Assembly (NCBI GenBank): GCA_947561585.1
Contig: CANNZV010003200.1
Location: 1 to 64,000, forward strand
Source: Caprella mutica
Taxonomy: Eukaryota; Arthropoda; Malacostraca; Amphipoda; Caprellidae
Length of the DNA: 64,000 nt
Reading direction: 5' to 3'
Below the pieces are notes generated by a model, which saw only the letters and a list, made by a program, of their open reading frames with translations, was not told where the DNA came from and ran no database searches. The position numbers and the translations under genes were made by a program. Positions 19,198 to 64,000 of this stretch are shown here, piece by piece; positions within the stretch are counted from its first letter, which is position 1, and each line of letters opens with the position of its first letter.

Positions 19198-19214
19198 TCC
19201 TCCACCTCCAAAAT
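19198..19214 (-). other. polypurine tract
   Basis: The minus strand reads TTTTGGAGGTGGAGGA directly before the 3' LTR. Such a purine tract primes plus-strand DNA synthesis in LTR elements. Confidence 0.75.
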
Positions 19215-25006: not shown

Positions 25007-25958
25007 AGGGGTCGCCCTTGTAATGTCCTAATGGTTCTCCTTCCTTCCAGATCGCCTTCCTAAATGTATTTAGGAGAGTTAGTAACGGAGGCTTCATGGT
25101 AGTATCTCCGCAGTTTATTTCCTCTTCTGTGAGTTCCTTGAATTCTTTTTCTATGTCCATGTAATTTCTCTCTCCTTTCTCCTGGACTGAGTTCAGATAT
25201 TCTTCTTCATTAAACAGCTGGCCCGTACATAACTGGGTACCCTGTTCTAACCTCACCTTCTCGTCATCCAAATTTATGAGATTGACGGTAATTTGTCCTT
25301 TTGTGACCCGAGTCACTGCATTTGCTGATACTACCATTTTCTTGTGGTGCACTGTTTTATGTAACACAATGCTTTGATTTTCTACGCACCATCTAGGTGC
25401 CCTTATATTCATTATTGTTACCGCATTTGGGTCTAATTCTACGTCTTCTACCAAGTGAATATTATTATTTCCAACTGGAACGTTTCCTAATTTCTTCTGT
25501 ACTCCTATTATTTGTTCGTTTAATATTTTCATCCTCATTGTTTCAGGATCCTTTATATCTTTAGGTAACCCCTTATTCTTATTAAATATCAGAGTATTAT
25601 TCGAGAAATCCAAATGGGCATTATTTAATATATTCATCCCTAAAACAATAATTTGTTTTACGGGGCTCACCTTGCTTAAGACCAACATTTCCACCGGAAA
25701 GTGTCCTTGAGGAGTAATTAATCCCACCTTTATGCTTCCTGCTATAGGAATCGTATTACCACTAGCGTCCTTCACACTACGGTTTGTTTTCCTTAAATAA
25801 TTTTGAGGTACTAACTCTTCATTTATTAATGAAATGGAAGCTCCTGTATCAATGAGAGCATCATGTTTTCTATTATTTATTTCTACCCTTAATTTAGGAG
25901 TGGATATCAAGTTATTTAAGGTCCTCACGTGATCCTCCTCCTGTACCTCTTCCTTGTG
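24981..25958 (-). CDS. pro: aspartic protease region
   Basis: The frame is the same as gag and continues immediately after the gag TGA. There is no ATG near its beginning; the first codon sometimes taken as a start (25926-25928) is GTG. The retropepsin active site is DTGAS, in the context ALIDTGASISLINEEL. About 200 residues of linker follow. It ends at TAA 24981-24983, 26 bp inside the next ORF. In Gypsy elements protease and RT normally share one frame, so the break here is unusual. Expression would need stop-codon readthrough, or the TGA is an inactivating mutation. Confidence 0.85.
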   Translation of the reverse strand, partial: HKEEVQEEDHVRTLNNLISTPKLRVEINNRKHDALIDTGASISLINEELVPQNYLRKTNRSVKDASGNTIPIAGSIKVGLITPQGHFPVEMLVLSKVSPVKQIIVLGMNILNNAHLDFSNNTLIFNKNKGLPKDIKDPETMRMKILNEQIIGVQKKLGNVPVGNNNIHLVEDVELDPNAVTIMNIRAPRWCVENQSIVLHKTVHHKKMVVSANAVTRVTKGQITVNLINLDDEKVRLEQGTQLCTGQLFNEEEYLNSVQEKGERNYMDIEKEFKELTEEEINCGDTTMKPPLLTLLNTFRKAIWKEGEPLGHYKGDPYAHNAHRP

Positions 25959-27452: not shown

Positions 27453-27984
27453 TTTCCCTTGTTATAATGGCACTAACTAAAACGCTTTAGTAATATATAC
27501 GTATTAACTTATGTAATTAATCAATTAATACACACGATACGCAATATTCAATACTCAGCATGCAATACAAGTTATTTAAGAGTATTAGTAACACAACATA
27601 ACCATGCAATAATTTATGTATTTTATGTTGTTAGTGGTAATACCCCTAAATTATGATTTATGAATTACAACAATTTGATAAAATGTTCTATAACTTATTA
27701 AATTAGTTCGACTTGAATTTTTATTATTCTATAATTTTAACTTCAATTATTTTTTTTTTTTTTACTACTCAATACTTCAATAGAACAGATGACGTTCTGC
27801 TAGTATTTCTTTAGTTACTTAGCCCCTTATACTAGTGATTAAGCTTACGTAGAAATTCTCGTAGATCTCAGACGGGTTATGTAACTTCCTAAGTGATGAC
27901 GTGTTATGCGTTGTGACGCAAAGTGTTTTTTATGTGAAGTGCTGGCTGCTCGTAAGGTCGCTGACCTTAGACACCGGTAGGGAA

Positions 27985-28155
27985 TACCAGTTCTTCAACT
28001 GCACTAGGAAGTAGGTCTCAACTAGCCTGGGGCACTGCTACCGCTGCTGCAACGGTCAAGTTGAAGAATACCAGTTCTTCGGCTGCTCTGGGAAGTAGGT
28101 CTCCACTAGCCGGAGGCACTGCTGGCTCGCACCCTGGCAACGGGTCAAGTTGAAG
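27985..28155 (-). repeat. duplicated leader block
   Basis: An approximately 84-bp block starting TACCAGTTCTTC occurs twice (27985 and 28069), with the same order of AGGAAGTAGGTCTC, CTAGCC and GGCACTGCT motifs. The rest of the leader from 27453 to gag-distal sequence holds no long open frame. Confidence 0.7.
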
Positions 28156-28311
28156 GTACGGAGTGTGTGTGGTATTACACAAAGCGGAAGGGCAGTTTAG
28201 AGGTTATGTGGTACGTGCAATGTTTTGCCACGTAAGTCTCACGTCTCTCGTTATACTATGTTGAGAGTGTTCTGATGATTGCTCATTGAAGGAATGCTGG
28301 TATGGAACCTT

Positions 28312-28914
28312 GACGTGATGGCGCTGCTGCCTTTCACAGTCCTTCACACTGTAGCGCAATGTGGATTACGCGGTGTGGCTTTGTGGTGTAGTGGTACTTA
28401 CACCCTGGCGTGATGGCGTTGCTGCCTTTCACAGTCCTTCACACTGTAGCGCAATGTGGATTACGCGGTGTGGCTTTGTGGTGTAATGGTACTTACACCC
28501 TGACGTGATGGCGTTGCTGCCTTTCACAGTCCTTCACACTGTAGCGCAATATAGATTACGCGGTGTGGCTTTGTGGTGTAGTGGTACTTACACCCTGACG
28601 TGATGGCGTTGCTGCCTTTCACAGTCCTTCACACTGTAGCGCAATGTGGATTACGCGGTGTGGCTTTGTGGTGTAGTGGTACTTACACCCTGACGTGATG
28701 GCGTTGCTGCCTTTCACAGTCCTTCACACTGTAGCGCAATATGGATTACGCGGTGTGGCTTTGTGGTGTAGTGGTACTTACACCCTGACGTGATGGCGTT
28801 GCTGCCTTTCACAGTCCTTCACACTGTAGCGCAATGTGGATTACGCGGTGTGGCTTTGTGGTGTAGTGGTACTTACACCCTGACGTGATGGCGTTGCTGC
28901 CTTTCACAGTCCTT
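28312..28914 (-). repeat. 95-bp tandem repeat in the retroviral leader
   Basis: Six full units and a partial seventh repeat at an exact 95-bp spacing (unit starts 28312, 28407, 28502, 28597, 28692, 28787 and 28882) with few substitutions. The array lies between primer site and gag. In Drosophila gypsy the leader holds the tandem su(Hw) insulator sites, so a similar regulatory or insulator role is possible here, but only by analogy of position. Confidence 0.9.
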
Positions 28915-29080
28915 ACTCCCTTTCTTTTACTCAGATTGATCCTGAGGGTTCGACTCTTCTTCCGTCCTTAATGAGGAGTTTTCTCCACTCATTCACTGTG
29001 GTCACTTACTTAGAGTTATTAGTCACCACCACTGTATCACCTGTACTTATATAGTTTTGATTTGATTAGTAATTCAGAGA

Positions 29081-29101
29081 AGTCCCTGTTTTCGGGCGCC
29101 A
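29081..29101 (-). other. primer binding site (tRNA-Lys type)
   Basis: On the minus strand the sequence just inside the 5' LTR is TGGCGCCCGAAAACAGGGAC. It matches the complement of the 3' end of tRNA-Lys(UUU), TGGCGCCCGAACAGGGAC, except for two extra A. Reverse transcription of the element would start here. Confidence 0.8.
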
Positions 29102-29112
29102 CATTTTAAAAC

Positions 29113-30010
29113 TAGTTTGCAGGTCAGTAAGTTTCTTTCTTTACTGACGTAGTTTTAATTCACTGAGTTAACTTTATTTCCCTATAGAATCGGGGAAATG
29201 AAACAACTCTATATATATCTCTTAGAATTACTATTCTCAAATATTAAGTACAGGATTACAAGATACAGATTTTGTTTACGCACAGTTTAAAAACATACTA
29301 TGTTCTATGCACAATATATACCGATTACGGATAAGAGTATTCGAACGGACGGAGGGAATAGTGCTAGATGCACAGCGAAGAGACTCAGTTACGATAAGAA
29401 CGTGGTTCTTTGGAATCCACAGTCTTTTATACTGGGATCTAAGGGAATAGAAGGGAACGAAAATCCACTATGCAACAAGTTTTTGCTAGATTTTAAAGTC
29501 CTTGGTTACAGTATCTAATGTAATACAAAGTAATACTCTAATGAGTTTTTATAAGTCTTCGTGATCTTTAACACAATGAATTTGGGGAATTTATATCCTC
29601 TCCTCCGACAGAACAGATAGATAATTGTGCATAGCCAACTTTTATGATAGGTAATGATAGTTCAAATCCTTATTTATTCACCTTCTTATGACATTTGCAA
29701 TCAAGATACTATTCAGATATTGTAAGTTAATCCTTATAAAGAATTTAGGTAAAAGTTAATCGACTCGTACACATAGTCTCAGATTGCACGTAATATAATA
29801 TAAGTATAATATTCAATAGTATAATATAATACAGTATAATATAATATTCAATATAACAATATATTCAATATAATATAATATAATATAATATAATATAATG
29901 TTCAATATATAATAATAATATATTCAAATAGGATATATAGTTAGAGTTGAACACACAGTCTAATATTATATAAATATATAATATTCGTTATATCGTTCAA
30001 TTTCTAACAC
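29113..30010 (-). repeat. 5' LTR of the endogenous retrovirus
   Basis: It is an 898-bp repeat, starting GTGTTAGAAATTG on the minus strand. It contains a strongly AT-biased block of ATATT/TATAAT repeats (about 29790-29905) that could hold the promoter TATA sequence. A 72-codon plus-strand frame within it has no coding support. Confidence 0.92.
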
Positions 30011-45401: not shown

Positions 45402-48400
45402 ATGTCAGAAGAGAATATAACATTACAGGTGAGTTATTTTTATTTATTTAACATTGTAACTCAATGTTCCCTTAGAAGTGAGAATTAATATGAGTAAATC
45501 AGGACTTAGCACATGAATATGTAGTAGGGACTCGAGAATTCAATTAACAAAAAGAATATAAATTACACCTTAATAGTTAATTTTAAATGGTGTGATTATG
45601 TGGGTTTATGAATGATGAATTATAAGTACTTATAACTAAAAACATTTGAGAATGAATCCGTTTTTAAAATTATTTCGGATTTACATTGAAATATTGACTC
45701 ATTTAAAGGTCCCCTCCAAGCAAATATTTTTATTGCCTTATTCAACAAGGCTAATGTTTTTCATTATTTTGCTGCAAACCGCATCAAATTTGGTAGCATA
45801 TTTTTAATTTTATATGCTTTTAAAGATTTTTATAATTAAAACTCTACGAAACCTATTTTACTTCCGACTTACTAATTTAAGAAATTTTCAGCCTGAAGAA
45901 AAAGAATGTACACCATTTGTTTTGATTGTCAACTAGGTATTAGGTTTAATAAATCCATTTAATATTCGTGTAAAGGTATAAAATTGAATGAAATTATAAT
46001 AGAAACGTTTACATACTGTAGGAAATAATTAATATCTAAAATAATGCCCGAAAACGCATGGTTTGTTTATAAAATTCAAATTTGTAATCAAAACAAAGAG
46101 TGTACAATCTTCTTATTGAGCATCAGATTAGTGATTCGCTCAATTGTTGCTCACAGAGTACTAAAAAACTTTAAAAACAAATTATTAAATATATACTGAA
46201 CCGAATTGTATGCAGTTTGCAGAATAATGATCGTAGACCTTAGTTCTGTAATATTATGTTATAAACTCATTTTTTTTGCGGAGCCTGGAGAGGACCTTTA
46301 ACCATGGAATGACCAGTGCCAGAGTTGCTTGTTCGGGAGGGAATACAGATTTATACTTTTTATGACTCGTGAAGAAATCTGAAGTCCTGATGAAGTACAT
46401 GGGCTGTTGCATCACATTTTAATTCACATCAAAAAATAGCTAGGGACGATCCATCGAATTAAGAAAAGTATTCAAAAATTAGCTGTAAGCAGAAGAATTG
46501 TTTTTTAGTCCTAAATTTTTTTTTATTTCTGATTATACAAAAAAAAACCTAAACATTAACACTGGATGAGACATTAATGCATTAAATCTAACCAAAATTT
46601 ATATTACATCGTCATCTTAATACCTTATAAAGATATTTACAATACAGGCAGGCCTCGCTTTAAAAGTACAACTCACTTTAATAAAAGTGATACTCGAAAT
46701 GGTGACAGGACAATAACCCCTCGTGCAATATACCCCCTGGACAAGAACCCCACCAGCAAAAAAACCCTGGTGCAAAAAAAAACTGTTCGATTTAAATAGC
46801 CTAATTCAATTTTATTAATTTTCATTAATTTTTTATTAATATAATTACTATACGCTATAAATATAATGAGATAGGGTGCACCTAAGGTTAGGTTAGCCGG
46901 TTGGAAGGGGGGGTTTGGGTGGGGTATACTGAGTATACTGACTCTACGGTTTTAAGTCTGACTATAAATTTAATATAAGAATTATTCAGCTACTGTTGAC
47001 CATTTTTGCCCCTATTTATGACAAGTAGCTACCACAAGATGATAACACACATCAGAAAAGTTATATATTTTAATACCAATGTATTTCAATTAATGTGAAA
47101 TATGCAAATCATTTCATGTTATACTACATTGAAAGAGCATTACTGTGTTAGTTTTATGAGTTAGTACTTCATTAAACTTCCAAAATAATAGATACTTGAT
47201 AACTCATTAAATATTGATGAGTTTTATAAATATAAACTTTATAACGCATTTTTTAAAAAGTATCCGTGACTGCTCTTGTTGAGAAGTATTGGTATTGGTT
47301 GATTTTGTAAAGTATCAGTATTGACAAAAATTTTGGTATAGTGCATTCCCTGAAATTTTATCTATGAGAGTAATTGAACTTGTCTAACAGTGATGAATGC
47401 AGTGTAAATATTTATTTACATAAAATTCAAATTATTTTGTTTTCATTTTGATATTTTGTTTGTATAGACTACTATTTTTTGAGTTTGAATGTTAATGTTT
47501 ATATTATATAGGGGCAATTTTCCTCTGTGGAAATTTTCCCACAGTGGGAGTTTTCCCAGAGGCAATCTTCCCAAGGGTAATTTTCCGCGCACGCTTTAGA
47601 TGTTGGTTTTTATGCGATATCTAAGTTTGCGGAAAGTGCTATGGATCACCTCGGTAGATGCTTGGTGATGCTGCTAGTGTGACCAAATGGTGGCAGTTTA
47701 GCTACCCTCAGGATGATCCTGAGTTGCCTCAAGTAACCACAACAACAACAGTGGCTTTACTTCATCCGAGCTACAGTTGCCCACCTTATCAAAATTGATA
47801 TAAAAGTAATTAGAACAAAAACGTATTAGCTGCATTATTTTCATTGATATTTATTTGATACATAAATATGTCATGGACAATGAAAATCATGGAGTTTCAG
47901 AAACTCCATGACATTAGTCAATTTGTTTTTCAATTCTGTAGCTATCAATAATTCTAACCAGACCTGGTCTCTCAGAGCTGTTGGTCATTCTATGGTTAAA
48001 GGTCCATTCCAGGCAAATTTTATTCAATGAGGCTAATGTTTTTTGTGATTTTTCTGCAAACCTCATAAAATTTAATATCTTTTTTTTTTTTGATAAATTT
48101 GATAGCTAATTGATCAAAATAATTAATCAAAACTCTTCAAAATCTGTTTTACTTTTGTCTTGATAATTTTCAGTCCAAAGGAAAGAATTTATCTACATCC
48201 TTTGTGTTAAATGTCAACTATGTAGTTAGATTTAATCCAGTATTAAATATTCCTGTAACTTACATAAATGTTTACATATTACAGAATTTTTTTTAAATCT
48301 AACAGAAAGGGAAAATGCTTTGTTCGTTTATGTAATTCCAATTAGAAATTGGAACTAAGAGTGTACAATCTCTTTCTTCAGCATCAGATTTGTGTGTTGA

Positions 48401-51400
48401 TTGTTACTCACAGAGTATTAAATACTTTAACAGCAAATGAAAAAATTGCCTAGACCTCTGTTTTATAGTATTATTTAATAAACTCGTTACTTCCCTGAGT
48501 CAGGAGAGGACCTTTAAATATTCTCTGTATATCAGTAGCAACAATTATTTTTATTCATTCCAATTCTCTGTGCACATCTTTACTGTCCCCCCACTTACAG
48601 TAACAGTTTTTGTCACAGCTCTTTAACAGGGGTTGGATTGGTGGCTCTTCGTTCTCAAGTAATGCAAATGATCTCATTTCAGGCTGAGGAAATAGAAGCA
48701 ACATCTGCAATATACGGAGAGGACTTTAGAGTCGAAGATGAATTTCTTCGGCAATATTCCATCAAAGTGTCTTATGAAGATCTTTCAGTCTTGCTGAGAG
48801 TAAGTATGTTAAAGATCAATTATTTCAGTATGTAATATATGTTAATGATACCATAGTTATTATGCAATATCTTAAAGAAGATTTATAACTTTATATAAAA
48901 ATCACAATCATTTGTTAATGAGTAATTTAGTGTCTGAAACATATAACATGTTGGCTATCTTTTTATATTAGAATATCTACAGCTGTTTATTATCTATTTA
49001 GTAGCTATATTTATGCACAAACTATTATTAACTATATCTTTATTTTTCAAACATAGTTTAGTTACGTAGGTCCAAATATCTACCAAATTAGCTTACTTTA
49101 GCTAATCATTTTTCAGATTACCCTCCCTGAAGAATATCCCAAAGTGTACCCTCCAAAATATGAGATTGACGGTCACTGGTTGCGAGGGAGTAGGAGAAAG
49201 CAGTTACAGGGCCACTTGGATGAAATTTACATGTGAGAAGCCGAAACAGCTAAATTTATTCCTTCTGCAATATGAAAGTGTAACTACTTTGCGAGTCCCA
49301 CAATAGAAATGGATATATATTGATAATGTTTGTTGAGTATTAAATAATGAATGTTGCCTGATAGTTAATCTACAAAGGGACACCTTGACCTTTAATATGT
49401 TTACACACTCTTATAACTTTAGCAGTTTGGTTGTATTGGCAATGTGGCACCAATGAACTCCACTCTGAATCATATATATTAGTTTAAAATAACATGTATA
49501 TTAAATAAGTTTGTTTACAATAAAAAAAAGAGTTGACTGATATTTGAAACCTGTAATGTTACAAAGTGCTCACAACGTCTAACTCTTCAATTTTGAATTT
49601 CCATACACTTCTGATATTGTTATCAGAATTTTAATATAAATAGTTTTGTTGTATTATAGATGTTGAACTCATAGATGTTCTTTGCAGAGAGAACATTGGT
49701 GAAAGTATAATATATTTATGGGTGGAAAAGGTGCGGGAGTTTTTGCAGGATTTAACGGAAGTTGAAACTACCACAGAAGAAATTTCGAAGTTAAATCTAG
49801 TAAGTCTTGAGATCATCTTCCTTGATTATATTTTATGCATTTATTTGTCTACTAAATTTACATGATCTACTTTGTCATTCATACTTCTCTATCATCATCA
49901 AAAATGTTCTGGAAAATTTAAAATACATTAGTATTTGCTCACATCATTAAATTGATTTTATTCAATCAAATGTAGTTCCTGAAGAAAATTGTATTTTAAT
50001 TTATTTATTAGATAAATACTAGATAGTAAATAGCTACCTTAAATATTTGCACTTCCATGTGATAAGATCATACTATCAATTTCTAATTTTATTTACCAAT
50101 TCATTCTAAGTATAGCAGTCATTAGAGGAGTCCTTTTTAACATTTATCTCATCAGATTCTAGTTTCAATTGTCACTCAAATACTATATTAAAAGTATTCA
50201 TTTTGCTCGTACCTACTTTCTTCAAGAACTATTTAGCTAATATTTTATTAGAAGCATTCCTATAATTCATGTTTTTATTGAATATTTAATCATTAGCTCC
50301 ACAGCAAGTGGTTATATTAATTAGTTCTTTTTTACCCTCAAGACAAGCAGTTCATCCCAGGAAGAAAATTGTGCCTCTACTACTGTCTCATGTCCAGATA
50401 TAACATCCGGGGAACTGATTGTAGATAGAAAGAGCGTTTTCCAGCCTCATCTAGCTAGGGTGACCTCTACTGAGGAAGTAATGTGAGTTTTTCAGCCTCA
50501 TCTAGCTAGGGTGACCTTTACTGAGGAAGTAATGTGAGTGTTTCAGCCTCATCTAGCTAGGGTGACCTCTACTGAGGAAGTAATGTGAGTTTTTCAGCCT
50601 CATCTAGCTAGGGTGACCTCTACTGAGGAAGTAATGTGAGTGTTTCAGCCTCATCTAGCTAGGGTGACCTCTACTGAGGAAGTAATGTGAGTGTTTCAGC
50701 CTCATCTAGCTAGGGTGACCTCTACTGAGGAAGTAATGTGAGTGTTTTAGCCTCATCTAGCTAGGGTGACCTCTACTGAGGAAGTAATGTGAGTGTTTCA
50801 GCCTCATCTAGCTAGGGTGACCTCTACTGAGGAAGTAATGTGAGTGTTTCAGCCTCATCTAGCTAGGGTGACCTCTACTGAGGAAGTAATGTGAGTTTTT
50901 CAGCCTCATCTAGCTAGGGTGACCTCTACTGAGGAAGTAATGTGAGTTTTTCAGCCTCATCTAGCTAGGGTGACCTCTACTGAGGAAGTAATGTGAGTGT
51001 TTTAGCCTCATCTAGCTAGGGTGACCTCTACTGAGGAAGTAATGTGAGTGTTTCAGCCTCATCTAGCTAGGGTGACCTCTACTGAGGAAGTATTGTGAGT
51101 GTTTCAGCCTCATCTAGCTAGGGTGACCTCTACTGAGGAAGTAATGTGAGTGTTTCAGCCTCATCTAGCTAGGGTGACCTCTACTGAGGAAGTAATGTGA
51201 GTGTTTCAGCCTCATCTAGCTAGGGTGACCTCTACTGAGGAAGTAATGTGAGTGTTTCAGCCTCATCTAGCTAGGGTGACCTCTACTGAGGAAGTAATGT
51301 GAGTTTTTCAGCCTCATCTAGCTAGGGTGACCTCTACTGAGGAAGTAATGTGAGTTTTTCAGCCTCATCTAGCTAGGGTGACCTCTACTGAGGAAGTAAT

Positions 51401-52916
51401 GTGAGTGTTTCAGCCTCATCTAGCTAGGGTGACCTCTACTGAGGAAGTAATGTGAGTTTTTCAGCCTCATCTAGCTAGGGTGACCTCTACTGAGGAAATA
51501 ATGTGAGTGTTTCAGCCTCATCTAGCTAGGGTGACCTCTACTGAGGAAGTAATGTGAGTTTTTCAGCCTCATCTAGCTAGGGTGACCTCTACTGAGGAAG
51601 TAATGTGAGTGTTTTAGCCTCATCTAGCTAGGGTGACCTCTACTGAGGAAGTAATGTGAGTGTTTCAGCCTCATCTAGCTAGGGTGACCTCTACTGAGGA
51701 AGTATTGTGAGTGTTTCAGCCTCATCTAGCTAGGGTGACCTCTACTGAGGAAGTAATGTGAGTGTTTCAGCCTCATCTAGCTAGGGTGACCTCTACTGAG
51801 GAAGTAATGTGAGTGTTTCAGCCTCATCTAGCTAGGGTGACCTCTACTGAGGAAGTAATGTGAGTGTTTCAGCCTCATCTAGCTAGGGTGACCTCTACTG
51901 AGGAAGTAATGTGAGTTTTTCAGCCTCATCTAGCTAGGGTGACCTCTACTGAGGAAGTTATGTGAGTTTTTCAGCCTCATCTAGCTAGGGTGACCTCTAC
52001 TGAGGAAGTAATGTGAGTGTTTCAGCCTCATCTAGCTAGGGTGACCTCTACTGAGGAAGTAATGTGAGTTTTTCAGCCTCATCTAGCTAGGGTGACCTCT
52101 ACTGAGGAAGTAATGTGAAGTAATAATTTATTTCACATGAAACTGTTTAAAATTATCAAGTATATCCTAAAATGGAATATTTTTTGCTTTATAATATTTG
52201 ACACTTCAATAAATCTCCAGAATTGATTTCTACTGATTTAATTTTAGTTACTCTAGCGATAAGTTGACAAGTCATTATTAGCAGAATTGTTCTCACTAAA
52301 TTTTCACTCCTGTTTTATTTCACAGGTTGGTGCTTAACAAACTGAAGGAGAATAGGAAAATAGCCACAGCCTCTCACAACATCTATGCTTACAGACTTTC
52401 TCTGAAGACAGGAACTGTTGCGCAGGACTGTGAAGATGACGGTGAAACTAAAGCAGGATCTAGAATGCTGCATTTGATGTCTGTGAGTTCAAACATACAC
52501 ACTCTTTCTGCATAGCTAAATTAATTGCTATTTGAGTAATGCTTACATGCTGGCAAAATATAATTTACAAGAACAAGTGAGTTTAGTCAATACGTTACCG
52601 TTTAGTTCTGTGATTGGTACACAATTAGTGACGTGATTTCACTTGCTCGTTTTGAAAACAATTGGATCTTAATGACTAGTATTCCACTCAACTATGTTAT
52701 TTTATAAGTTCCTTCTGAAATTATTTAGCGTATCTTCTCATTCAGGTGCTGGATGTAATGAATGTGTTGGTGGTGGTCACTCGATGGTACGGTGGCACTC
52801 ATTTGGGTCCCGACAGATTCAAGCATATCAACACGGCCACCAGAGAAGTTCTCGCTAAATGCGGCTTCTTAGATTCTAACGATAAAAAGGAAAAGCGTCC
52901 TAAGAAAAGCAAATAG
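45402..52916 (+). CDS. IMPACT: IMPACT/YIH1 family protein (RWD + UPF0029), seven coding exons
   Basis: IMPACT proteins bind GCN1 through an RWD domain and so restrain activation of the eIF2-alpha kinase GCN2 in the cytosol. I assembled seven exons by GT-AG sites and phase: 45402-45428, 48683-48799, 49117-49232, 49688-49799, 50343-50482, 52326-52482 and 52746-52916. They join without stops to 279 residues, close to the family's usual 260-320. RWD covers about residues 10-115 (EEIEATSAIYGEDF, LPEEYPKVYPP). The UPF0029 domain is about 141-255 (DRKSVFQPHLARV, ASHNIYAYRL, RWYGGTHLGPDRFKHI). A lysine-rich tail ends it. The start exon has only nine codons (MSEENITLQ). Intron 1 (3.25 kb) hosts two TTAA-type MITEs; intron 5 begins with a 33-copy minisatellite. 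All splice sites are inferred. Confidence 0.92.
45707..46297 (+). mobile_element. TTAA-flanked MITE, piggyBac-like, copy 1 (IMPACT intron 1)
   Basis: It is 591 bp. AGGTCCCCTCC at the left and GGAGAGGACCT at the right form the termini, flanked by TTAA at 45703-45706 and 46298-46301. The interior has GCTAATGTTTTTCATTATTT, shared with the other copies. It is non-coding. Confidence 0.88.
46640..46800. repeat. odd repeat-end-like motif cluster in IMPACT intron 1
   Basis: The cluster has CAGGCAGGCCTCGC, then ACAATAACCCC, ATACCCCC, AGAACCCC, AAAACCC spaced motifs each preceded by a GTGCAA/GACAA-type word. It looks like the terminus of a transposon with repeated subterminal words. No partner end was identified. 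Confidence 0.35.
47507..47590. repeat. repeated GGCAATYTTCC motif cluster in IMPACT intron 1
   Basis: Five variants of GGCAATTTTCC/GGGAGTTTTCC occur in tandem-like order. The same words bound the 43944-45190 region. It is possibly a lone transposon end. Confidence 0.45.
48000..48513 (+). mobile_element. TTAA-flanked MITE, piggyBac-like, copy 2 (IMPACT intron 1)
   Basis: It is 514 bp, flanked by TTAA at 47996-47999 and 48514-48517. It has the same ends and interior as copy 1 with more changes and some deletions. It ends about 170 bp before the second coding exon of IMPACT. Confidence 0.86.
50445..52118 (+). repeat. 51-bp minisatellite made of an exon end plus its 5' splice site
   Basis: Thirty-three units start every 51 bp from 50445 to 52077 without a single indel. 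The first unit is the last 38 bases of IMPACT coding exon 5 (CCTCATCTAGCTAGGGTGAC through GAGGAAGTAAT) followed by its donor GTGAGT and TTTTTCAG. All later units repeat exon end, donor and a pyrimidine-AG word. In frame, the first repeat boundary reads ATG TGA, so using any later donor would truncate the protein. Marker variants (TTTTAG, GAAGTATTG) at units 11-12 recur at units 23-24, showing a 12-unit block duplication. Confidence 0.96.
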
Positions 52917-53762
52917 AAGCTGAATTGTCTCCAGTACCTTCAAAAGACACGTACAGTGGAGGAAGGGTCTAGACACATTTTGAAATTCTTCAGAAGCATC
53001 AAAAGTTAGATTTTTTATGTTTACTGAGATATAACTGTCGATTGAGGTATTTCAACTATTTTCCCATAAAATACTGATGGAACAATGAAAATACTCGGAA
53101 TTTTATTTTCATGAAACATCATTTTCAAGTTTGCGGTTTAGGCCATTCTTCCACCGAACGTGTCATATCAACTGTTTTCATGTTAGCTATTTATTTCTGT
53201 TTAAAATTAATTAATCATACCATCAACTAAAGAATTGAAAGGTAATTGATTTTATTAATTATTTATCTAAATTTTAATGCCTATTGTATCGTTTTGGATC
53301 TAGGGGTATTTATTGAAAACTGAAGACGTAATTACCACTTTCGAAAATTGAAACTTTTTAACCTATATTTTTAGTATGTAATTCATCAATGTTAGGCATT
53401 ATCTTTGATAATATTTTGATTTTACTTGTGGAAATTTATTCTTCTCAACTTGTGGGTCATTTTTTACTTTTGCAAAGGAAATCCTAACATAATATTCCTA
53501 TTTATGCTAATCTTGATTGTTGTGATATAATTTTAAGGGCAGCTGTTTGTGAGTAATGAATTATATTCATATTTTCTTTCGTCTTCTAATTAAATACCCA
53601 TAAAGATTAATGTCCCCTGAAAAAAAAAATATGTAGATAATTAAAAGGAAAGTAACTGTTATTGAGGAAATAGAAGAAAAGCAATTAGCTATATTCTGCT
53701 ACCCTCAGGGGTTCTATCCTGAAGCTGTCTGTGGTGAAAGGAAGAGAATGGGGTATGTGGGT
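52917..53762 (+). other. 3' flank of IMPACT
   Basis: This AT-rich non-coding DNA probably includes the 3' UTR. I could not choose a polyadenylation site. No other gene is seen. Confidence 0.5.
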
Positions 53763-53967
53763 TAACGCTTGAGTTATGAAGTATTGGTATCTTCATATAA
53801 CTCAGAGCCACTTCATAGCTCAGGCACTCTAATAGTTTTCTATGATTAAAATCATGGAAAAAACTGAAATCTTTGAGGGATAACTAAGAGAAATTCATGA
53901 CGTAGGTATATCGTTTTCTATAATTTAAACAGAGAAAATACTTCATAACTCAGGAGTTTTACTGAAC
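53763..53967. mobile_element. Tc1/mariner-like MITE, copy 2, degraded
   Basis: GAGTTATGAAG and CTTCATAACTCAGGAGTTTT match the ends of the 44190 element; the left terminus is eroded. Confidence 0.65.
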
Positions 53968-53992
53968 TTCTTTTCAACTTTCATTATTTTAG

Positions 53993-54335
53993 AGGATAGC
54001 GCTAGGGTTATGCTCTTCAACTACGAGGTCTTAGATTTTGTGTTAGGTAGACTCGTAGCCTTCATTTACTATCACCTCTTCCATCCGTCAGTGCAGCTAC
54101 CGGTGCTTGTGCCCTTTTTCGTCACATTCTTTGATAAGTGACTGCATTCACGTAGTAGCTTCTCTGCATTCATGAGCATCGTCACTGTGGGGACTTTGTT
54201 CTTGAAGCCACTTTCCTTTCCGGCTGCTTCTTAAGTCCCTTGTATTTAATTTCCATTTGACGTCAGTTATATGGCAATGGGTTCCGAAGCAGACGTTAAA
54301 CTCCTAAATTCTATAAGCAGGCATAGATAGAAACT
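53993..54335 (+). mobile_element. possible tRNA-derived SINE
   Basis: The start GGATAGCGCTAGGGTTATGC followed by CTACGAGGTCTTAG resembles a tRNA-type head with a decayed B box. It is followed by unrelated body sequence and an A-poor tail. This rests on resemblance only; no second copy is in the window. Confidence 0.35.
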
Positions 54336-54659
54336 GTACAGAGAATCTAATAATGAAAATAGGTGTTTCTTCATTAAATACTAAAGGTTAAAAGAAACTA
54401 CCATCGTCTCATCTTAATATAATATATTTTTATCTGATATATTCTGCATGCACATTTATAAATAACGCCTTTCTATTAATATTCGAAATATGTGATAGAT
54501 TTCGATCAGTGCAATAAAATGAGTTCAATTAGCTATATGATGACTTTTATCATAAAAGTATATTAACTCTTGATGAATTGCAAAATAAACTAAAACAGAA
54601 ATAACAAACCTCATACAGTATGAATTAGGTTTGTGTCATGAATAAATAGTTTGCCTTAA

Positions 54660-55241
54660 AGGTCCTCTCTAGGCTCCGTGAAAAATATGAGTTTATCACA
54701 TAATATCATAGAACTAAGGTCTACGATCATTATTCCGCAAACCGCATACAATTCGGTTCAGTATATATTTTATTTTTTCGCTTTTAATGTTTTTTAATAC
54801 TCTGTGAGCAACAATCGAGCGAATCTCCAACCTGACGCTGAGAAAGAAGATTGTACACTCTTAGTTTTAATTTCAAATTTTGATTTTTAAACAAACAAAG
54901 CGTGTTTGGCCTTCTTTTAAGATAGTAATTGTTTCTAAAAGTATATAAACGTTTCTATAATAAGTTTATCCAAATTTAAACCTTTAAACGAATAATGAAT
55001 AGATTTATTAAACTAAATACCTAGTTGACAATCAAACCAAATGGTGTACATTCTTTTTCTTCAGACTGAAAATTAGAAAGTCGGAAGTAAAGTAGGTTTT
55101 ATAGAGTTTTGATTAAAGAAATCTTTAAAAGCATATAAAATTAAAAATATGCTATCAAATTTTATGCAGTTTGCAGTAAAATGATGAGAAACATTAGCCT
55201 CGTTGATTTAAGCTATAAAAAAATTTGCGTGGAGGGGACCT
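54660..55241 (-). mobile_element. TTAA-flanked MITE, piggyBac-like, copy 3
   Basis: It is 582 bp, in opposite orientation to the copies in IMPACT, with TTAA at 54656-54659 and 55242-55245 and AGGTCC...GGACCT ends. Confidence 0.88.
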
Positions 55242-55245
55242 TTAA

Positions 55246-56034
55246 AGGCCCATAGCAACTCTTATACTCTATAACTAAAGTGTGGAAAAACATATTTTGG
55301 AGCATTAATAGTAGAACATTATTGAACTATTTAATTTTTAAAAGCTTCATTAAATTATATAATGATACCACAATTAGTGGTGAAAATATCAAGCTTCGTG
55401 CGTTTGTGTTCGTATTATCTCTCACCAAATATGTACCAACGCCATCTAGCGGTACAACTGACTATTTATCCATTTAACACTAATTTTTCAGCGGTTTCTT
55501 GATATTAAGAAACATAATTTCTAGATGTGTCCAAATTATGTACCTTGCCCTAGATTTTTAAATTCTATATAACGCAAAGAAATTATATTTTTCACTTCTA
55601 GAATAATTGATATAGGTTCGTTATAGCATAGTAATACTAAGTTTCGAATTCATTGACTGTGAACTGGAACCATTCTTCAGAAACGATGTAAACAAATGCC
55701 GTTACTCAGAGTACTCCCAAATATTACTAACGTGATAAAAACATAATTTAATGTAAGTTAATTTCCATAGAAATGGACATTCAACTGAATGATAACAAGT
55801 CTATAATTCAAAACAATAAATGTGATCAACTCTGTATGACGTCACTCAAGAGTGTTTTCGATGTTCCAATATTGTACTCAGTATATTCTTCCTCTATTTA
55901 TTTACTATGAGTCATACTACTCGAAATTGTTGAAATAAGTTAATTTCCATTTGGTTCATGACCTATGTTAACTCTGACTTTCTGCGTAATAAGATGTTTC
56001 TCTACGTTCAGAGAATTTAACCTATGTTCTATGT
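55246..56034. other. non-coding stretch between IMPACT flank and lectin gene
   Basis: It likely includes the 3' UTR of the lectin gene (minus strand). AATAAA-like words occur but none is convincing. No gene is seen. Confidence 0.45.
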
Positions 56035-59000
56035 TTAGAACATAGGAATTTTGCACATGAAGTAACTCTTGTTATGGCAGTTGGTGTGTTTCCATTTTCC
56101 TGTGATTTTCATGACGGCGCAGTTCAGGTCCTTCCTCGGCCACACTCCATTCCAATCGAAGTTGGTGTACGAAGCAGTGGCTGAAATTAAGCAGACATTT
56201 AAATGTACTATCAGAGAAAAGAGTCACTGTGATGATGTACTGTCAGAGAAAAGAGTCACTGTGATGATGTACTATCAGAGAAAAGAGTCACTATGATGAT
56301 GTACTATCAGAGAAAAGAGTCACTGTGATGATGTACTATCAGAGAAATAAGTCACTGTGATGATGTACTATCAGAGAAAAGAGTCACTGTGATGATGTAC
56401 TATCAGAGAAAAGAGTCACTGTGATGATGTACTATCAGAGAAAAGAGTCACTGTGATGATGTACTATCAGAGAAAAGAGTCACTGTGATGATGTACTATC
56501 AGAGAAAAGAGTCACTGTGATGATGTACTACCAGAGAAAAGAGTCACTGTGATGATGTACTATCAGAGAAAAGAGTCACTGTGATGATGTACTATCAGAG
56601 AAAAGAGTCACTGTGATGATGTACTACCAGAGAAAAGAGTCACTGTGATGATGTACTACCAGAGAAAAGAGTCACTGTGATGATGTACTACCAGAGAAAA
56701 GAGTCACTGTGATGATGTACTACCAGAGAAAAGAGTCACTGTGATGATGTACTATCAGAGAAAAGAGTCACTGTGATGATGTACTACCAGAGAAAAGAGT
56801 CACTGTGATGATGTACTACCAGAGAAAAGAGTCACTGTGATGATGTACTATCAGAGAAAAGAGTCACTGTGATGATGTACTATCAGATGAAAGAGTCACT
56901 GTGATGATGTACTATCAGATGAAAGAGTCCCTGCACTTTGCTAATTTCACAGATCACTGTTTTCACATTACCTATTATTTTTATATTTTATAGATTTATC
57001 ATCGTGTACCCAGACTAATTTTAAAATATCTAAGAGTATTACAGTTAGTAAATTTTCTTTTTGGAAATATGAAATTAGTAAACAGCGAAAATATTATCAA
57101 AGATACACTCTCAGTGTGCATCTCGAGAGAGAAAATCAAGACATTGTGATTGAATTCCTGATCTACATTTAACAGCAGTTTCATTTATTTAACATTTGTC
57201 AAGTCAATTAGAAATTATAATAATAAAATTAAAAGGAAAATGCAACAATAAACAATTTGAAGATTAATGAAACATATGGACTAATCACAAAAATTTCGTA
57301 GTAAATTATGTAAAATAAAATTTCATCCTTTTCATCACTAAAACTCCATTTTAGTTAGAAATATAATACAAATAAAAGTAAAAAAACTAGATGATATGAA
57401 CTTTATGCCATGTTTCTTCAGTTAATTAAATACATGCATATAATTTTATGGGCGGTCAAATAGGGGAACTAAAGTTTCATGCAAAATTTAAAGCTGAATT
57501 TTGTCGGATAAAAATTGTTTCTTCCGTTAAGAACAGGAGCGACACACACTAACTATTATATGATTTACATTAGTTAGTTTTCTTTTGTACGAAAGAAAAC
57601 GGCACCCTCAACATTGACCGTTATTAAGTAATTGAAAAGTTCATTGCTTGCGGGAATCACTGTCAGGAAACCTAACACTATAGCTAAAAGTCTTTTGTAG
57701 AACTAGTGAAAATAATGTTTGTTGATTCCATCTTCATGATATCAGAAGACGTAAAATTTAGTGGAAAAATTAGTTTCTACTAAATATTATTTTATATCAA
57801 ACGTTAAAACTAAGTTTCTCCTTTACGTGACCTGAATTTTTTTTCCCGAAAAAGAAAGTAGGTTGCGCCAACCTCTGCATTACGACAAACTGTTGTGAAA
57901 TGGCGCTGTGATCATTAGCTAGCTAGGAGATACGTACCACCGTTGAACTCTTTCCAAATTCCTTCGTCAGTTTCATCTGTGATGCCAATGAAAGTGGAGA
58001 ACACTGCCTTCTTTGAAATAATTTGGGCCCTCAATATCTCATTTTGTTCAGCGTTCTGCAATTAGAGTATGAAATCATTTATTGTATAAGAAAGTAGCAG
58101 TGCTCATAAAGTGCACTCAGAAAAATGCTTAGGGACAAAATCGTTACACTTCAGTGCATCATCTATAAGGCCCCTTTCACACGAGTCACTGAGTGACCAT
58201 CACTCCAAACAACCATGCTAGAAAACACTCAATCTGAAGAATTCCTTCATCATTTGAGGAGTTTCATCTATTGGCTTTAATGTTCAAGAAGGAAGAGACG
58301 CTCTCTCGAAAAAAATTGCAAACGCATGAGATGTTAACATTAGAGATGGGACAATAACGAAATTTTCACAAATACCGATACCCAGATTTTGACTGATGTC
58401 GATTACTAAATATTGTTATCGCAAATTTATAGTTACTATTAGAATAGATATTGTTCAAATAAATTATGTTCAAGAAATTTAAAATACTATTGGTATCGAT
58501 ACGTTTTTAATTACCATCACCGATATGAGAAAAATTACCGATACCAATTCCGATACTTCGACTCATTTAACATAAAGAATAGATAAATATAAACATCATA
58601 CACTTTAAAATAATTTATGTAGCTATGTGATGATAATTTTTAATTCTAAAATTTCTTCCAAACCACAAATAAAGAGGAAAATTATTTGAATACTGCAGGC
58701 AGAGGACTTAGCTCACAAAAAGTTGCGTCACTTAGTGACTCAGTATGAAAGCTACTATTAATATTGTACCCCACAGTCGGTGACGGCAACTTTCAGTGAC
58801 GGTCACTAGTTACCTCACGCGTCACTGCAAAATGCAATTGCGCAACCGGACAACCGAAGTGACATCGTTTGAAAGGCTATGTCACTTTTGCGGGTATATG
58901 CATAATAAATAATGGCGGGTAACTGGTGACTCGTATGAAAGGGGCCTAAATTTGAAATAGTGATGTGTTTCAAGAGATTGAAAGTGCTAGAGTGCGGTGA

Positions 59001-61095
59001 ACTTTAGTGCTCTAGAAAAAGTCTACTGAAACTACTCCCATTATTTAAACAAAGGATGATAGAGACACTGAGGTGCATCGCACTGAAACACCTGCAAGTT
59101 TTTGAAACAAACAAGTTTACAAAATTAAAAGTTTCGCGTTCAAAGTGACAAAGCTTAGAAGGTAATCGTAAAACAATGGCGTGTCTCTGATATTTCGTTA
59201 AAATTGGTCTAGCAGAAAGTTTTGAAAGTCTATTAATTCATGACCTATGTTAACTCCCACTTTCCGAGTACTGCGAGTGTCTATTTCCCTATATTACATT
59301 GGCTTTTGCCATTTCCCCCACCTTTATCGGCATGAGTTCTCCACCCTGTCCGTTACAGTAAGTTTCCCCCTCGTAAGCAGTCATCAACTTGTGAACGAAG
59401 AAGACGTAGTCAGAGCCCATCTTAAGGTAACCCTCACTGGTAGCTGAGGGAGGAATGGGAATGTGATGGCAGAGGAATGGGAATGTGATGGCAGAGGAAT
59501 GGGAATGTGATGGCAGAGGAATGGGAATGTGATGGCAGAGAAATAGGAATGTGATGGCAAAGGAAGGAATGGGAATATGATGGCAAAGGAATGGAATGTG
59601 ATGGTAAAGCAAGGAATGGGGAATGTGAGGGCAAAGGATGGAATGGAGAATGTGATGGCAAAGGAAGGAATGGGAATGTGATAAATATATTGTGAAATAC
59701 CTAATATTTCAAAAATAGTTCCACTATATAAGCGATATTCATGTGCCTATTATTGAAATTATCAAAAAATTGTTAAATGAAAACCTATATTAAAAAAATA
59801 AACATTATATTTAGGTAGGAGTTCATCGCAGGAAATGTGATAATATTCTATGGCCCCACCATAACATCAAATTGTTAGAAAATCCGTAAAAAATGGAATT
59901 ATAAATTGCATGAACATTTTGTAATTTGGAAGATAAAATTGACTAAAGTTTCGAAAATTGAAATGATTTAAATTCGTACGTCTAATTTTCAGGTGGTTTT
60001 GGAGTGGACTAATGCTTTATTTTGTAGACTTACAAGTGTTTCTATCATTACAGTATTTGCATTCTACTTAATGAGAGGAACTAACAGATACTCACACTTC
60101 TCCCTGACGTAGAGCTTGAAGTTGTTCTTTGGAATTGACCTGGAGCCTATTATCATCTTGTACAGTTCGCACAGATTCCTGAAGGCGGAGTAGGAGAAGA
60201 CATCGCAAGTAGCGTCCTTAGAGGTTAAAGGGACTGAATTAGTCGGTTAAAGGGACTGAATTAGTCGGTTAAAGGGACTGAATTAGTCGGTTAAAGGGAC
60301 TGAATTAGTCAGTTAAAGGGACTGAATAAGTCGGTTAAAGGGACTGAATTAGTCAGTTAAAGGGACTGAATTAGTCAGTTAAAGGGACTGAATTAGTCGG
60401 TTAAAGGGACTGAATTAGTCGGTTAAAGGGACTGAATTAGTCGGTTAAAGGGACTGAATTAGTCGGTTAAAGAGACTGAATTAGTCGGTTAAAGGGACTT
60501 GACAGAGTGTTAACTTACCAGCTGACAGAGAGTGCTAACTTACCAGCTGACAGAGAGTGTTAACTTACCAGTTGACAGAGAGTGTTAACTTACCAGTTGA
60601 CAGAGAGTGTTAACTTACCAGTTGACAGAGAGTGTTAACTTACCAGTTGACAGAGAGTGCTAACTTACCAGCTGACAGAGAGTGTTAACTTACCAGTTGA
60701 CAGAGAGTGTTAACTTACCAGTTGACAGAGAGTGTTAACTTACCAGTTGACAGAGAGTGTTAACTTACCAGTTGACAGAGAGTGCTAACTTACCAGCTGA
60801 CAGAGAGTGTTAACTTACCAGTTGACAGAGAGTGTTAACTTACCAGTTGACAGAGAGTGTTAACTTACCAGTTGACAGAGAGTGTTAACTTACCAGTTGA
60901 CAGAGAGTGTTAACTTACCAGTTGACAGAGAGTGTTAACTTACCAGTTGACAGAGAGTGTTAACTTACCAGTTGACAGAGAGTGTTAACTTACCAGTTGA
61001 CAGAGAGTGTTAACTTACCAGTTGACAGAGAGTGTTAACTTACCAGTTGACAGAGAGTGTTGCAAGCATCCACGGAGTCTACAGGGCTGACACTC
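56035..61095 (-). CDS. PAN/apple + C-type lectin-like protein, five 3' exons
   Basis: Exons on the minus strand, in order: 61044-61095, 60096-60216, 59298-59443, 57938-58055, 56035-56180 (stop TAA 56035-56037). All junctions are GT-AG and phases agree, giving 193 residues. The N-terminal part is a PAN/apple-like cysteine module (DACNTLC, TCDVFSYSAFRNLCELY). The rest is a C-type lectin domain: ETYCNGQGGELM, FIGITDETDEGIW, YTNFDWN, LNCAVM, GKWKHTNCHNKSYFMC, with four cysteines for two disulfides. The usual EPN/QPD and WND calcium-site motifs are absent, so calcium-dependent sugar binding is doubtful. The start exon with a signal peptide is not in view and probably lies beyond 64000. Insect proteins of this kind are mostly secreted and act in recognition or immunity. 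Confidence 0.85.
56207..56942 (-). repeat. 32-bp minisatellite before the last lectin exon
   Basis: Twenty-three units of 32 bp start every 32 bp from 56207. On the gene's strand each unit reads CTCTTTTCTCTGATAG followed by TACATCATCACAGTGA, so it carries a pyrimidine tract plus AG, much like a 3' splice site. The true acceptor of the last exon lies 25 bp beyond the array at 56181-56182. The last two units have an AGATGAA variant. Confidence 0.93.
57190..57930. other. intron sequence of the lectin gene
   Basis: It is plain AT-rich intron; nothing recognisable was found. Confidence 0.5.
58169..58946. mobile_element. PIF/Harbinger-like MITE in a lectin intron
   Basis: It is 778 bp. Ends GGCCCCTTTCACACGAGTCA and its near complement (TGACTCGTATGAAAGGGGCC) are flanked by TAA on both sides (58166-58168 and 58947-58949), the target of PIF/Harbinger elements. 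Inside are further GTCACT-type inverted words and ACCGATA repeats; no transposase. Confidence 0.85.
59451..59690 (-). repeat. 22-bp pyrimidine-rich minisatellite abutting a splice acceptor
   Basis: About ten units of 22 bp, drifting in length at the far end, are present. On the gene's strand the unit is CTGCCATCACATTCCCATTC CT, so the array gives a long pyrimidine-rich tract ending 7 bp from the acceptor of exon 59298-59443. Confidence 0.88.
60223..60500 (-). repeat. 22-bp minisatellite with branchpoint-like word, next to an acceptor
   Basis: Thirteen units start every 22 bp from 60223 to 60487. On the gene's strand each unit is GACTAATTCAGTCCCTTTAA CC and holds CTAAT (the insect branchpoint consensus) and TTCAG. 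The array ends 5 bp from the acceptor of exon 60096-60216. Confidence 0.93.
60500..61065 (-). repeat. 25-bp minisatellite of tandem 5' splice sites
   Basis: Twenty-two copies of the donor context CAACTG|GTAAGTT (some CAGCTG) occur every 25 bp, counted from 60515 to 61040. The one farthest right (61040) is the real exon end of 61044-61095. The unit is the last 14 or so exon bases plus the donor. The array directly meets the 60223-60500 array, so the intron 60217-61043 is nothing but the two arrays. Confidence 0.95.
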
Positions 61096-61199
61096 CTGGA
61101 GAGGAAAGAAACACATTAACAAAATTCTCTAAGTTTCGAAAGATACTAGTCATGAAAACATTACAAATATGCTAGAAGTAGATTTAAATTTCCGTTTAG

Positions 61200-62400
61200 T
61201 GGGTATAGAAAACGGTGGCCGGTCAATTGATCCCCGACCATTCGATCCCAGGTTAATTGATTCCTTGTTACTTAATTTGACGAATGAAGAGACGCTCGAA
61301 GAAAGTGTTTGAAATATTCTAAAATTCGTTACTTAACATTTGGAAATGAATATTAAAAATTGGAAATATTAAATCACAGATTGAAAGTATTTATATGACA
61401 AGTACTTGAGCCGAAATTTAGAAAAAATATTCTTGCAAAAATGAATTGCAAAATAAAATATTGTATTTCAGTGATTTTCAATAATTAAACGAAAAAAATT
61501 CACTATACATTCTATGACTAAATTAGTTATCATTTAATAACACAATCCCCTTTCACTGCAACTCAATTCACCGCATGGAAAGTTCACAGCATTGTAAATT
61601 TCAATTTAGTAATGAGTGTTGATAATTCCTTAGAATGAAGGTCAAGAGAAAGATTCGACAACTGTGTGTATTCCCACTTACCATGTGGGAATCATCATAG
61701 AGAACATTTTATTTGAAGTCTTAACGTTGTATTCCATAATTACTAATACTGTAATACACTGTAATACACTCATAAGTTCAATTACGATTATCAGTTAGAG
61801 TAAAATGGACAGGAAAAAGAAAATCTATACATTACTTTTAAATGATTATAATTTAACAATTAAAATTACGTTCAATGCCTAGCACACATTCAATGACATC
61901 GCTATGTTCTTCAGAGGCCATTACAAGCCTTCCAGACGAGAAAAAGATTAAAATGAAGACCTTTCTCCATTTAGCTTCCTATTTCTCATGCAATATATTG
62001 TACAATAGTAATTTAACATGGTTTTTGTTCATGCTTGATACATTCCTAACAATTCCATGTATTAGGATGTTCAGACACCATTTACTCATTGAATGTCCTT
62101 TGCCAACCTTCAACATTATTATTAGTCATCTTTGTAACAGCAAGAACTAATAATCAACTGAAAGATGGAGAGGAATTTGCATCTTAGTAAAATGCAGGTC
62201 TTTGTTAATCAGCTTTGCAGTAAATCATTCTTTTTATAATGATTTGATTAAAATTTTACCTATGGTGAACTGAATCGCGATGAACTTATCATGCGGTGAA
62301 TTGAGGGCGGTGAATTGAAGGCGGCTAAATTTTCGGCGGTGAATTGAAGGCGGCTAAATTTTCGGCGGTGAATTGAAGGCGGCGACATACCGCACATCAA
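61200..62400. mobile_element. possible element with repeated CAATTGA/GGTGAATTGA ends
   Basis: CTCAATTCACCGCAT (61562-61576) and its exact complement (62291-62305) form an inverted pair. GGCGGTGAATTGAAGGCGGC repeats in tandem at 62300-62393, and GGTCAATTGATCCCCGACC stands at 61216. No transposase; limits uncertain. The rest of 61096-62430 shows no exon. Confidence 0.4.
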
Positions 62401-62436
62401 TTCGAATATGAATATAACTATGTAACTTTATTTACT

Positions 62437-64000
62437 ATCAGAGAAAAGAGTCACTGTGATGATGTACTATCAGAGAAAAGAGTCACTGTGAAGATGTACT
62501 ATCGGAGAAAAGAGTCACTGTGAAGATGTACTATCAGAGAAAAGAGTCACTGTGAAGATGTACTATCGGAGAAAAGAGTCACTGTGATGATGTACTATCA
62601 GAGAAAAGAGTCACTGTGAAGATGTACTATCGGAGAAAAGAGTCACTGTGAAGATGTACTATCAGAGAAAAGAGTCACTGTGAAGATGTACTATCGGAGA
62701 AAAGAGTCACTGTGATGATGTACTATCAGAGAAAAGAGTCACTGTGAAGATGTACTATCGGAGAAAAGAGTCACTGTGAAGATGTACTATCAGAGAAAAG
62801 AGTCACTGTGAAGATGTACTATCGGAGAAAAGAGTCACTGTGATGATGTACTATCAGAGAAAAGAGTCACTGTGAAGATGTACTATCGGAGAAAAGAGTC
62901 ACTGTGATGATGTACTATCAGAGAAAAGAGTCACTGTGAAGATGTACTATCGGAGAAAAGAGTCACTGTGAAGATGTACTATCAGAGAAAAGAGTCACTG
63001 TGATGATGTACTATCAGAGAACAGAGTCACTGTGATGATGTACTATCAGAGAAAAGAGTCAAGTGATGATGTACTATCAGAGAAAAGAGTCACTGTGATG
63101 ATGTACTATCAGAGAAAAGAGTCACTGTGATGATGTACTATCAGAGAAAAGAGTCACTGTGAAGATGTACTATCAGAGAAAAGAGTCACTGTGAAGATGT
63201 ACTATCAGAGAAAAGAGTCACTGTGATGATGTACTATCAGAGAAAAGAGTCACTGTGAAGATGTACTATCAGAGAAAAGAGTCACTGTGAAGATGTATTA
63301 TCAGAGAAAAGAGTCACTGTGATGATGTACTATCAGAGAAAAGAGTCACTGTGATGATGTACTATCAGAGAAAAGAGACAATGTGATGATGTACTATCAG
63401 AGAAAAGAGCACTGTGATGATGTACCATCAGAGGAAAGAGTCACTGTGTTGATGTTCTATCAGAGAAAAGAGTCACTGTGATGATGTACTATCAGAGAAA
63501 AGAGTCACTGTGATGATGTACTATCAGAGAAAAGAGTCACTGTGATGATGTACTATCAGAGAAAAGAGTCACTGTGAAGATGTACTATCAGAGAAAAGAG
63601 TCACTGTGAAGATGTATTATCAGAGAAAAGAGTCACTGTGATGATGTACTATCAGAGAAAAGAGACAATGTGATGATGTACTGTCAGAGAAAAGAGTCAC
63701 TGTGATCATGTACTATCAGAGAAAAGAGCACTGTGATGATGTACCATCAGAGGAAAGAGTCACTGTGTTGATGTTCTATCAGAGAAAAGAGTCACTGTGA
63801 TGATGTACTATCAGAGAAAAGAGTCACTGTGATGATGTACTATCAGAGAAAAGAGTCACTGTGATGATGTACTATGAGAGAAAAGAGTCACTGTGATGAT
63901 GTACTATCAGAGAAAAGAGTCACTGTGATGATGTACTGTCAGAGAAAAGAGCACTGTGATGATGTACCATCAGAGGAAAGAGTCACTGTGTTGATGTACT
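62437..64000 (-). repeat. 32-bp minisatellite, second array, runs off the window
   Basis: About 48 units occur of the same 32-bp sequence as 56207-56942, here with a GATGATGT/GAAGATGT and TCAG/TCGG alternation that makes 64- and 96-bp higher-order patterns, plus a few indels. On the minus strand each unit again carries a pyrimidine-AG word. It probably lies in an upstream intron of the lectin gene. Confidence 0.92.

Follow-up and report, generated by a model that had tools for sequence, protein, structure and literature searches.

Tandem repeats lying over exon-intron boundaries have been described in amphioxus, where such 'mirages' occur at donor and acceptor boundaries of Adh3 and of the globin genes BflGb6 and BflGb9, with unit lengths of 10-72 bp in Adh3 and 150-160 bp in the globins (PMC3087553). 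Similar imperfect boundary repeats with units of 60 and 108 bp were found in amphioxus PGBD5 (PMC3902484), and regular splicing is undisturbed by mirages according to their authors (PMC3087553, PMC3902484). Intron gain by tandem genomic duplication has been reviewed (PMC3443670) and was suggested for several Drosophila introns (PMC2891723). In C. elegans the minisatellite CeRep25B, a single 24-bp family clustered on two chromosomes, is over-represented near alternative splicing regions (PMC4039745), and in earthworm metallothionein genes minisatellites fill intron 1, with no splice-site link described in the portions of that report available to us (PMC12783039). Here we describe minisatellites at the splice sites of two genes, IMPACT on the forward strand and a gene with PAN_1 and Lectin_C domains (the lectin gene) on the reverse strand, in a stretch of 64,000 nucleotides from the amphipod Caprella mutica (assembly GCA_947561585.1, contig CANNZV010003200.1, positions 1 to 64,000; hereafter the window). 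The reading which we favor, at a probability of roughly 0.7, is that these are splice-site-seeded minisatellites of the amphioxus mirage kind, arising by tandem duplications that cover or adjoin a splice site and whose extra copies fall into the intron.

Like the amphioxus mirages, the repeats in the window include exon-intron boundaries copied in tandem in the manner of a minisatellite. They differ in that the host is an arthropod, the arrays on the acceptor side end before reaching the exon and one intron consists almost entirely of two arrays; in addition, closeness to splice sites was set against chance here. The likeness to intron gain by tandem duplication is that the duplicated segment includes a splice signal and the copy turns intronic, whereas here an ordinary acceptor is present in what is left of each intron once its array is removed. 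In its precise form that process uses an AGGT in the duplicated segment as both splice sites; AGGT is absent at both donors lying in arrays of the window and present at the donor of a myosin gene elsewhere in the assembly (locus L042, below). Derivation from the host exon is not among the features described for CeRep25B in the available text. We found no report of a minisatellite at an arthropod exon-intron boundary among the titles and abstract openings listed in searches of open-licence papers.

Gene models were built from homology and GT-AG junctions, and every splice site given is a prediction; the modelled junctions keep the reading frames intact. Arrays were placed with Tandem Repeats Finder (TRF). 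The two genes and the arrays which span their donors are as follows.

45402-52916, + strand: IMPACT gene (reading frame, domains, orthologs)
45402-45428, 48683-48799, 49117-49232, 49688-49799, 50343-50482, 52326-52482 and 52746-52916, + strand: IMPACT coding exons (gene model)
50442-52118, + strand: 51-bp array, 33 copies, across the donor of IMPACT exon 5 (TRF, unit listing, ortholog alignment)
50436-50482, + strand: exonic, coding first copy of the 51-bp unit (gene model, unit listing, ortholog alignment)
56036-61095, - strand: PAN_1 and Lectin_C gene, five downstream exons (gene model, Pfam)
61095-61044, 60216-60096, 59443-59322, 58055-57938 and 56180-56036, - strand: lectin gene exons (gene model)
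60504-61061, - strand: 25-bp array, 22 copies, across the donor of the PAN exon (TRF, gene model, unit listing)

The IMPACT model has 7 coding exons with a 279-aa frame open across the GT-AG junctions, and its protein contains RWD and UPF0029 domains (Pfam). Orthologs are present across animals, the best-scoring named relatives being crustaceans, with insects among other close ones. A homolog search with the lectin protein gave no match. The first exon or exons of this gene are upstream and probably outside the window; on the contig, a frame resembling a signal peptide at 66.1-66.3 kb is a candidate.

By the modelled splice sites, the repeat unit holds the exon-intron boundary, exon part included, in the two arrays 50442-52118 and 60504-61061 and in a third array in the myosin gene (L042:331-1253). 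Phased by its last copy, the 51-bp unit consists of 47 nt of IMPACT exon 5 coding sequence followed by GTGA, and the array reaches 41 nt into the exon (47 nt in this phase). The exon copy encodes VFQPHLARVTSTEEV; of its 15 whole residues, 4 do not vary in an alignment of nine animal sequences (eight orthologs and this one). Where GTGA meets the GTTTTC of the exon the junction reads GTGAGT, which is the case in 32 copies. The last copy, beside unique intron, reads GTGAAG and may represent the old donor; predicted U1 pairing is -5.2 kcal/mol for the first donor versus -1.7 kcal/mol for the last copy. Variants inside the array reappear 12 units apart, consistent with block duplication. When this array was searched for together with its two flanking exons its own locus was the sole match in the assembly, and no second copy was found by this search, which skips very common words. 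The 25-bp unit of the lectin gene is made of 18 nt of the PAN exon and GTAAGTT, and there are 22 GTRAGT sites in the array. The donors inside the two arrays read AAT|GTGAGT (IMPACT) and CTG|GTAAGT (lectin), and a frame read beyond the first donor meets a stop at once (VM* and LVS*, respectively).

Three further arrays, all in the lectin gene, lie on the acceptor side of introns.

60223-60499, - strand: 22-bp array, 12.6 copies, ending 6 bp short of the acceptor (TRF, gene model)
60217-61043, - strand: lectin intron, nearly all array (gene model)
59450-59682, - strand: 22-bp pyrimidine-rich array, ending 6 bp short of the acceptor (TRF, gene model, unit listing)
56203-56933, - strand: 32-bp array, ending 22 bp short of the acceptor (TRF, gene model)

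These arrays have no exon-intron boundary in the unit. The branch-point-like motif CTRAY is present on the sense strand in the units of 56203-56933, of 60223-60499 (11 sites in the array) and of an acceptor-side array at locus L038 elsewhere in the assembly; it is lacking in 59450-59682, the most uniform copies of which adjoin the acceptor. On the antisense strand the motif is found in none of these four units. Arrays 60223-60499 and 60504-61061 make up 817 of the 827 bp of lectin intron 60217-61043, leaving 10 bp, and if the intron is spliced as modelled its branch point would therefore lie inside a repeat. Since both occupy this single intron the two arrays are not independent.

Counting arrays in the modelled introns of the window, 5 of 6 lie near splice sites (5 of 8 when 62293-62383 and 62433-64000, upstream of the known lectin exons, are included). 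Under random seeding the probability of 5 of 6 within 25 bp was P = 1.5e-4, and of 5 of 8 at the same per-array chance P = 1.1e-3. Without the 32-bp array, which belongs to a dispersed family, and with the shared intron counted once, 3 of 4 arrays lie within 6 bp (P = 1.9e-3). When each array was shuffled within its own intron, with lectin intron 1 excluded, the finding of 3 of 4 within 25 bp had P = 2.1e-3. A preliminary description of this DNA had placed five arrays at splice sites. TRF confirmed all five, with ends within about 10 bases of those described, either spanning donors or stopping 6, 6 and 22 bp before acceptors; the misses 47512-47586, 62293-62383 and 62433-64000 were absent from the earlier tally or had no role in it.

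The same association was seen in other genes of the assembly (903 Mb, 7200 contigs). The assembly was searched for exons encoding protein kinases (PF00069), with 136 matches, and myosin heads (PF00063), with 105, and a sample was taken of 10 kinase stretches (short matches, open frames), 6 myosin stretches and 2 more with long introns, none of which were picked for repeats. The count, entered by hand, took in arrays of at least 3 copies in introns of which both ends were modelled. Not included were kinase stretches L029-L033, which had no modelled intron, and, as unreliable, the intron model of L044 and the L039 intron 5948-6143; the acceptor of L042 intron 1 was shifted by eye to the next TTGCAG. 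The resulting 32 introns contained 4 arrays, 3 of which had a splice site no more than 10 bp away (P = 3.7e-4 under random placement in array-free intron sequence; P = 5.9e-3 at 25 bp). The first is the donor-spanning array L042:331-1253 in myosin intron 0, with a 60-bp unit comprising the exon end KLSRDSNDYHYLRQ and GTAGGGTCCTAG; its donor reads CAG|GTAGGG and the frame beyond it QVGS*. In intron 2 of L039 an array begins 10 bp after the donor, which has AG|GT, and the array of L038 ends 10 bp before the acceptor. No arrays were found in five L045/L046 introns, and none of at least 3 copies in L040 and L041. Two further near arrays lie outside the modelled set, L042:3777-3974, which begins 2 bp after a donor, and L043:4831-4870, an array 40 bp long beside an exon match. 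The earlier suggestion that the association occurs beyond the window is supported by this small sample of genes.

Window and other genes were then pooled and each array shuffled inside its own intron, excluding lectin intron 1 because there is no free sequence there. Within 10 bp we counted 5 of 8 arrays (0.52 expected, P = 2.1e-5) and within 25 bp 6 of 8 (1.29 expected, P = 9e-5). Leaving out the dispersed array (5 of 7) gave P = 1.2e-5 at 10 bp and 1.1e-3 at 25 bp. With the upstream lectin arrays added as misses the values were 3.6e-5 (5 of 10 within 10 bp) and 2.1e-4 at 25 bp, or 2.4e-5 and 2e-3, respectively, when the dispersed array was dropped as well.

Other observations were made on the sampled gene families. 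Many long kinase frames are intronless, which suggests foreign sequence in the assembly. Myosin genes occur twice in opposite orientation, on contigs C1840/C2332 and C3351/C238, and are probably haplotype copies; contig C2332 has four versions of one myosin exon in succession.

A number of results weigh against the reading which we favor. Three arrays of the window lie far from any modelled splice site.

47512-47586, + strand: IMPACT intron 1, small array with a 15-bp unit, over 1 kb away from splice sites
62293-62383: array, 1.2 kb from the nearest known lectin exon
62433-64000, - strand: second array of the 32-bp family, continuing past the window end, 1.3 kb from the nearest known lectin exon

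The last of these would be intronic if exon 1 corresponds to the frame at 66.1-66.3 kb. The array at 56203-56933 is weak evidence for local seeding because the 32-bp family is dispersed: its unit gave at least 111 matches spread over many contigs, with 39 of 327 candidates scored. The units of the acceptor-side arrays (56203, 59450, 60223) show no similarity to exons above that of shuffled units, and an exon origin of these units was dropped. Among the sampled genes, the array in L042 intron 1 is 154 bp from a splice site, and L042:3777-3974 is similar to a dispersed repeat. The 16 kinase and myosin stretches L029-L044 contain 15 arrays of at least 3 copies in all; the distance to a matched exon is at most 8 bp for 5 of them and 117-861 bp for the other 10, and some of these 10 may be outside the gene. 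The distance thresholds were chosen after the data had been seen, and the counts rest on about 10 arrays in total and on splice sites taken from homology and consensus.

Motif searches likewise gave no indication of a donor origin for minisatellites at large. A set of 71 arrays was assembled from fetched loci L009-L046, gene loci included (period at least 12, at least 3 copies, at least 60 bp, best-scoring of overlapping rows), leaving out L020-L022 and L027 (GC-rich, probably bacterial), L028 (the contig of the window) and 7 arrays of the 32-bp family (78 reduced to 71). GTRAGT was present in 5 of the 71 against 3.1 for permuted motifs, so the donor motif was not enriched, and CTRAY in 12, no more than permuted motifs. 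Genome-wide, a triple CAGGTRAGT pattern had 3071 matches, within the range of composition-matched controls (172 for the reversed donor triple, 566 and 7582 for a second permuted pattern and its reverse); in this test a donor origin and the amplification of a few families by chance are indistinguishable. Because the motif tests do not demonstrate a splice-site origin for minisatellites in general, the supported claim is limited to arrays inside introns.

The preliminary description had also held that the units are all different and that no single repeat is spreading. This stands for the 51-bp array, which matched its own place only; 56203-56933 belongs to a dispersed family and has the same 32-bp unit as 62433-64000. 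When units were compared in 10 pairs and both orientations, only 56203-56933 versus 59450-59682 were alike at p < 0.05 (0.005, uncorrected), and a single repeat behind all five arrays was dropped. Some arrays of the 32-bp family lie at contig ends, and the largest have more than 100 copies. A piece of another dispersed repeat is found at 54132-54187 and at L042:3777-3974, and in eight other fetched loci.

From here on, beyond the direct observations (unit composition, exon identity, position on the modelled genes, stop codons and recurrence in other genes), we infer the order of events, the use of the first donor and the growth step. An array would start as a short tandem duplication, either across a donor (exon end and GT...) or just inside an acceptor, in the branch-point and pyrimidine zone. 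The outermost site would stay in use, leaving the new copies in the intron and the protein unaltered. In the three donor-spanning cases a stop lies within three residues past the first donor, and use of a later donor would therefore give a truncated product. The block would then grow by unequal exchange or slippage. Such arrays may be tolerated because the outermost site preserves the protein and the early stops make inner donors unproductive. As to why they arise at splice sites, a mutational hot spot and the survival of site-strengthening duplications both fit. Two causes proposed in the preliminary description were abandoned: breakage at AG|GT, since neither window donor has AG before GT, though the donors of L042 intron 0 and L039 intron 2, outside the window, do; and slippage linked to R-loops, the sense-strand G-C skew being negative in 4 of 5 arrays.

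It is improbable that an ordinary minisatellite background accounts for these observations, with arrays of a repeat-laden genome falling necessarily near splice sites where introns are short. Such a background would agree with the presence of at least 2 arrays of at least 150 bp in 12 of 15 arthropod-like 10-kb stretches (L009-L019, L023-L026), 11 of the 15 having been picked near a known 32-bp array, with the lengths of three window introns after array removal (10, 207 and 419 bp) and with the 10 distant arrays in the sampled gene stretches. However, shuffling inside each array-free intron, which controls for short introns, gave P values of 1.2e-5 to 1.1e-3, at worst 2e-3 with two more misses, and the coding exon ends in three units are left unexplained.

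Somewhat less probable still is retention of the arrays by selection, in which splicing gains strength from additional donors, branch points and pyrimidine tracts, as the preliminary description had also proposed. One hint of this is found at the donors, in the better predicted U1 pairing of the first donor of the 51-bp array, and CTRAY is restricted to the sense strand, in 3 of 4 acceptor-side units. This explanation rests on one donor case and four units, however; the unit downstream of the L039 donor lacks GTRAGT, CTRAY showed no excess in arrays at large, and 22-33 copies are more than a strong single site would require.

Mobile repeats landing near splice sites, with arrays imported ready-made from dispersed elements, apply to the 32-bp family and probably to L042:3777-3974, but are the least likely source overall, since the 51-bp array (the sole array checked genome-wide) matched one locus only, the units of 59450-59682, 60223-60499, 60504-61061, L038, L039 and the L042 donor array had no other match in the fetched loci beyond the contig of the window, and three arrays hold sequence of the host exon.

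Repeats were also seen elsewhere on the contig. The 36-bp array at 13059-14582, most copies of which are traversed by an open reading frame, lies just upstream of frames resembling those of long interspersed nuclear elements (15151-17871). On the reverse strand, 18478-29922 looks like a long terminal repeat (LTR) retroelement, with gag/pol/env-like frames between two regions, at about 18.5-19.1 and 29.3-29.9 kb, that share short repeats and a reading frame; a 95-bp array (28307-28914) is situated inside this LTR-like element. Contigs C1, C2, C3 and C8, among the longest of the assembly, had a GC content of 0.47-0.61 and no long arrays in the 10 kb read from each, and are probably bacterial.

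More tentatively, splice sites may be mutational hot spots for minisatellite birth in this genome, with introns growing from their own splice signals (exon end and donor, branch point and pyrimidine tract), a general mode noticed in amphioxus and possibly operating independently in an arthropod. A preference of nascent arrays for splice sites, if real, would mean that intron length and new splice variants stem in part from a mutational habit and not from transposons alone, and it would be measurable in any annotated genome. Units derived from an exon permit dating, as the exon copy is under selection and the intronic copies drift freely. With mirage-like arrays in a second, distant lineage, a comparative test of their cause becomes possible.

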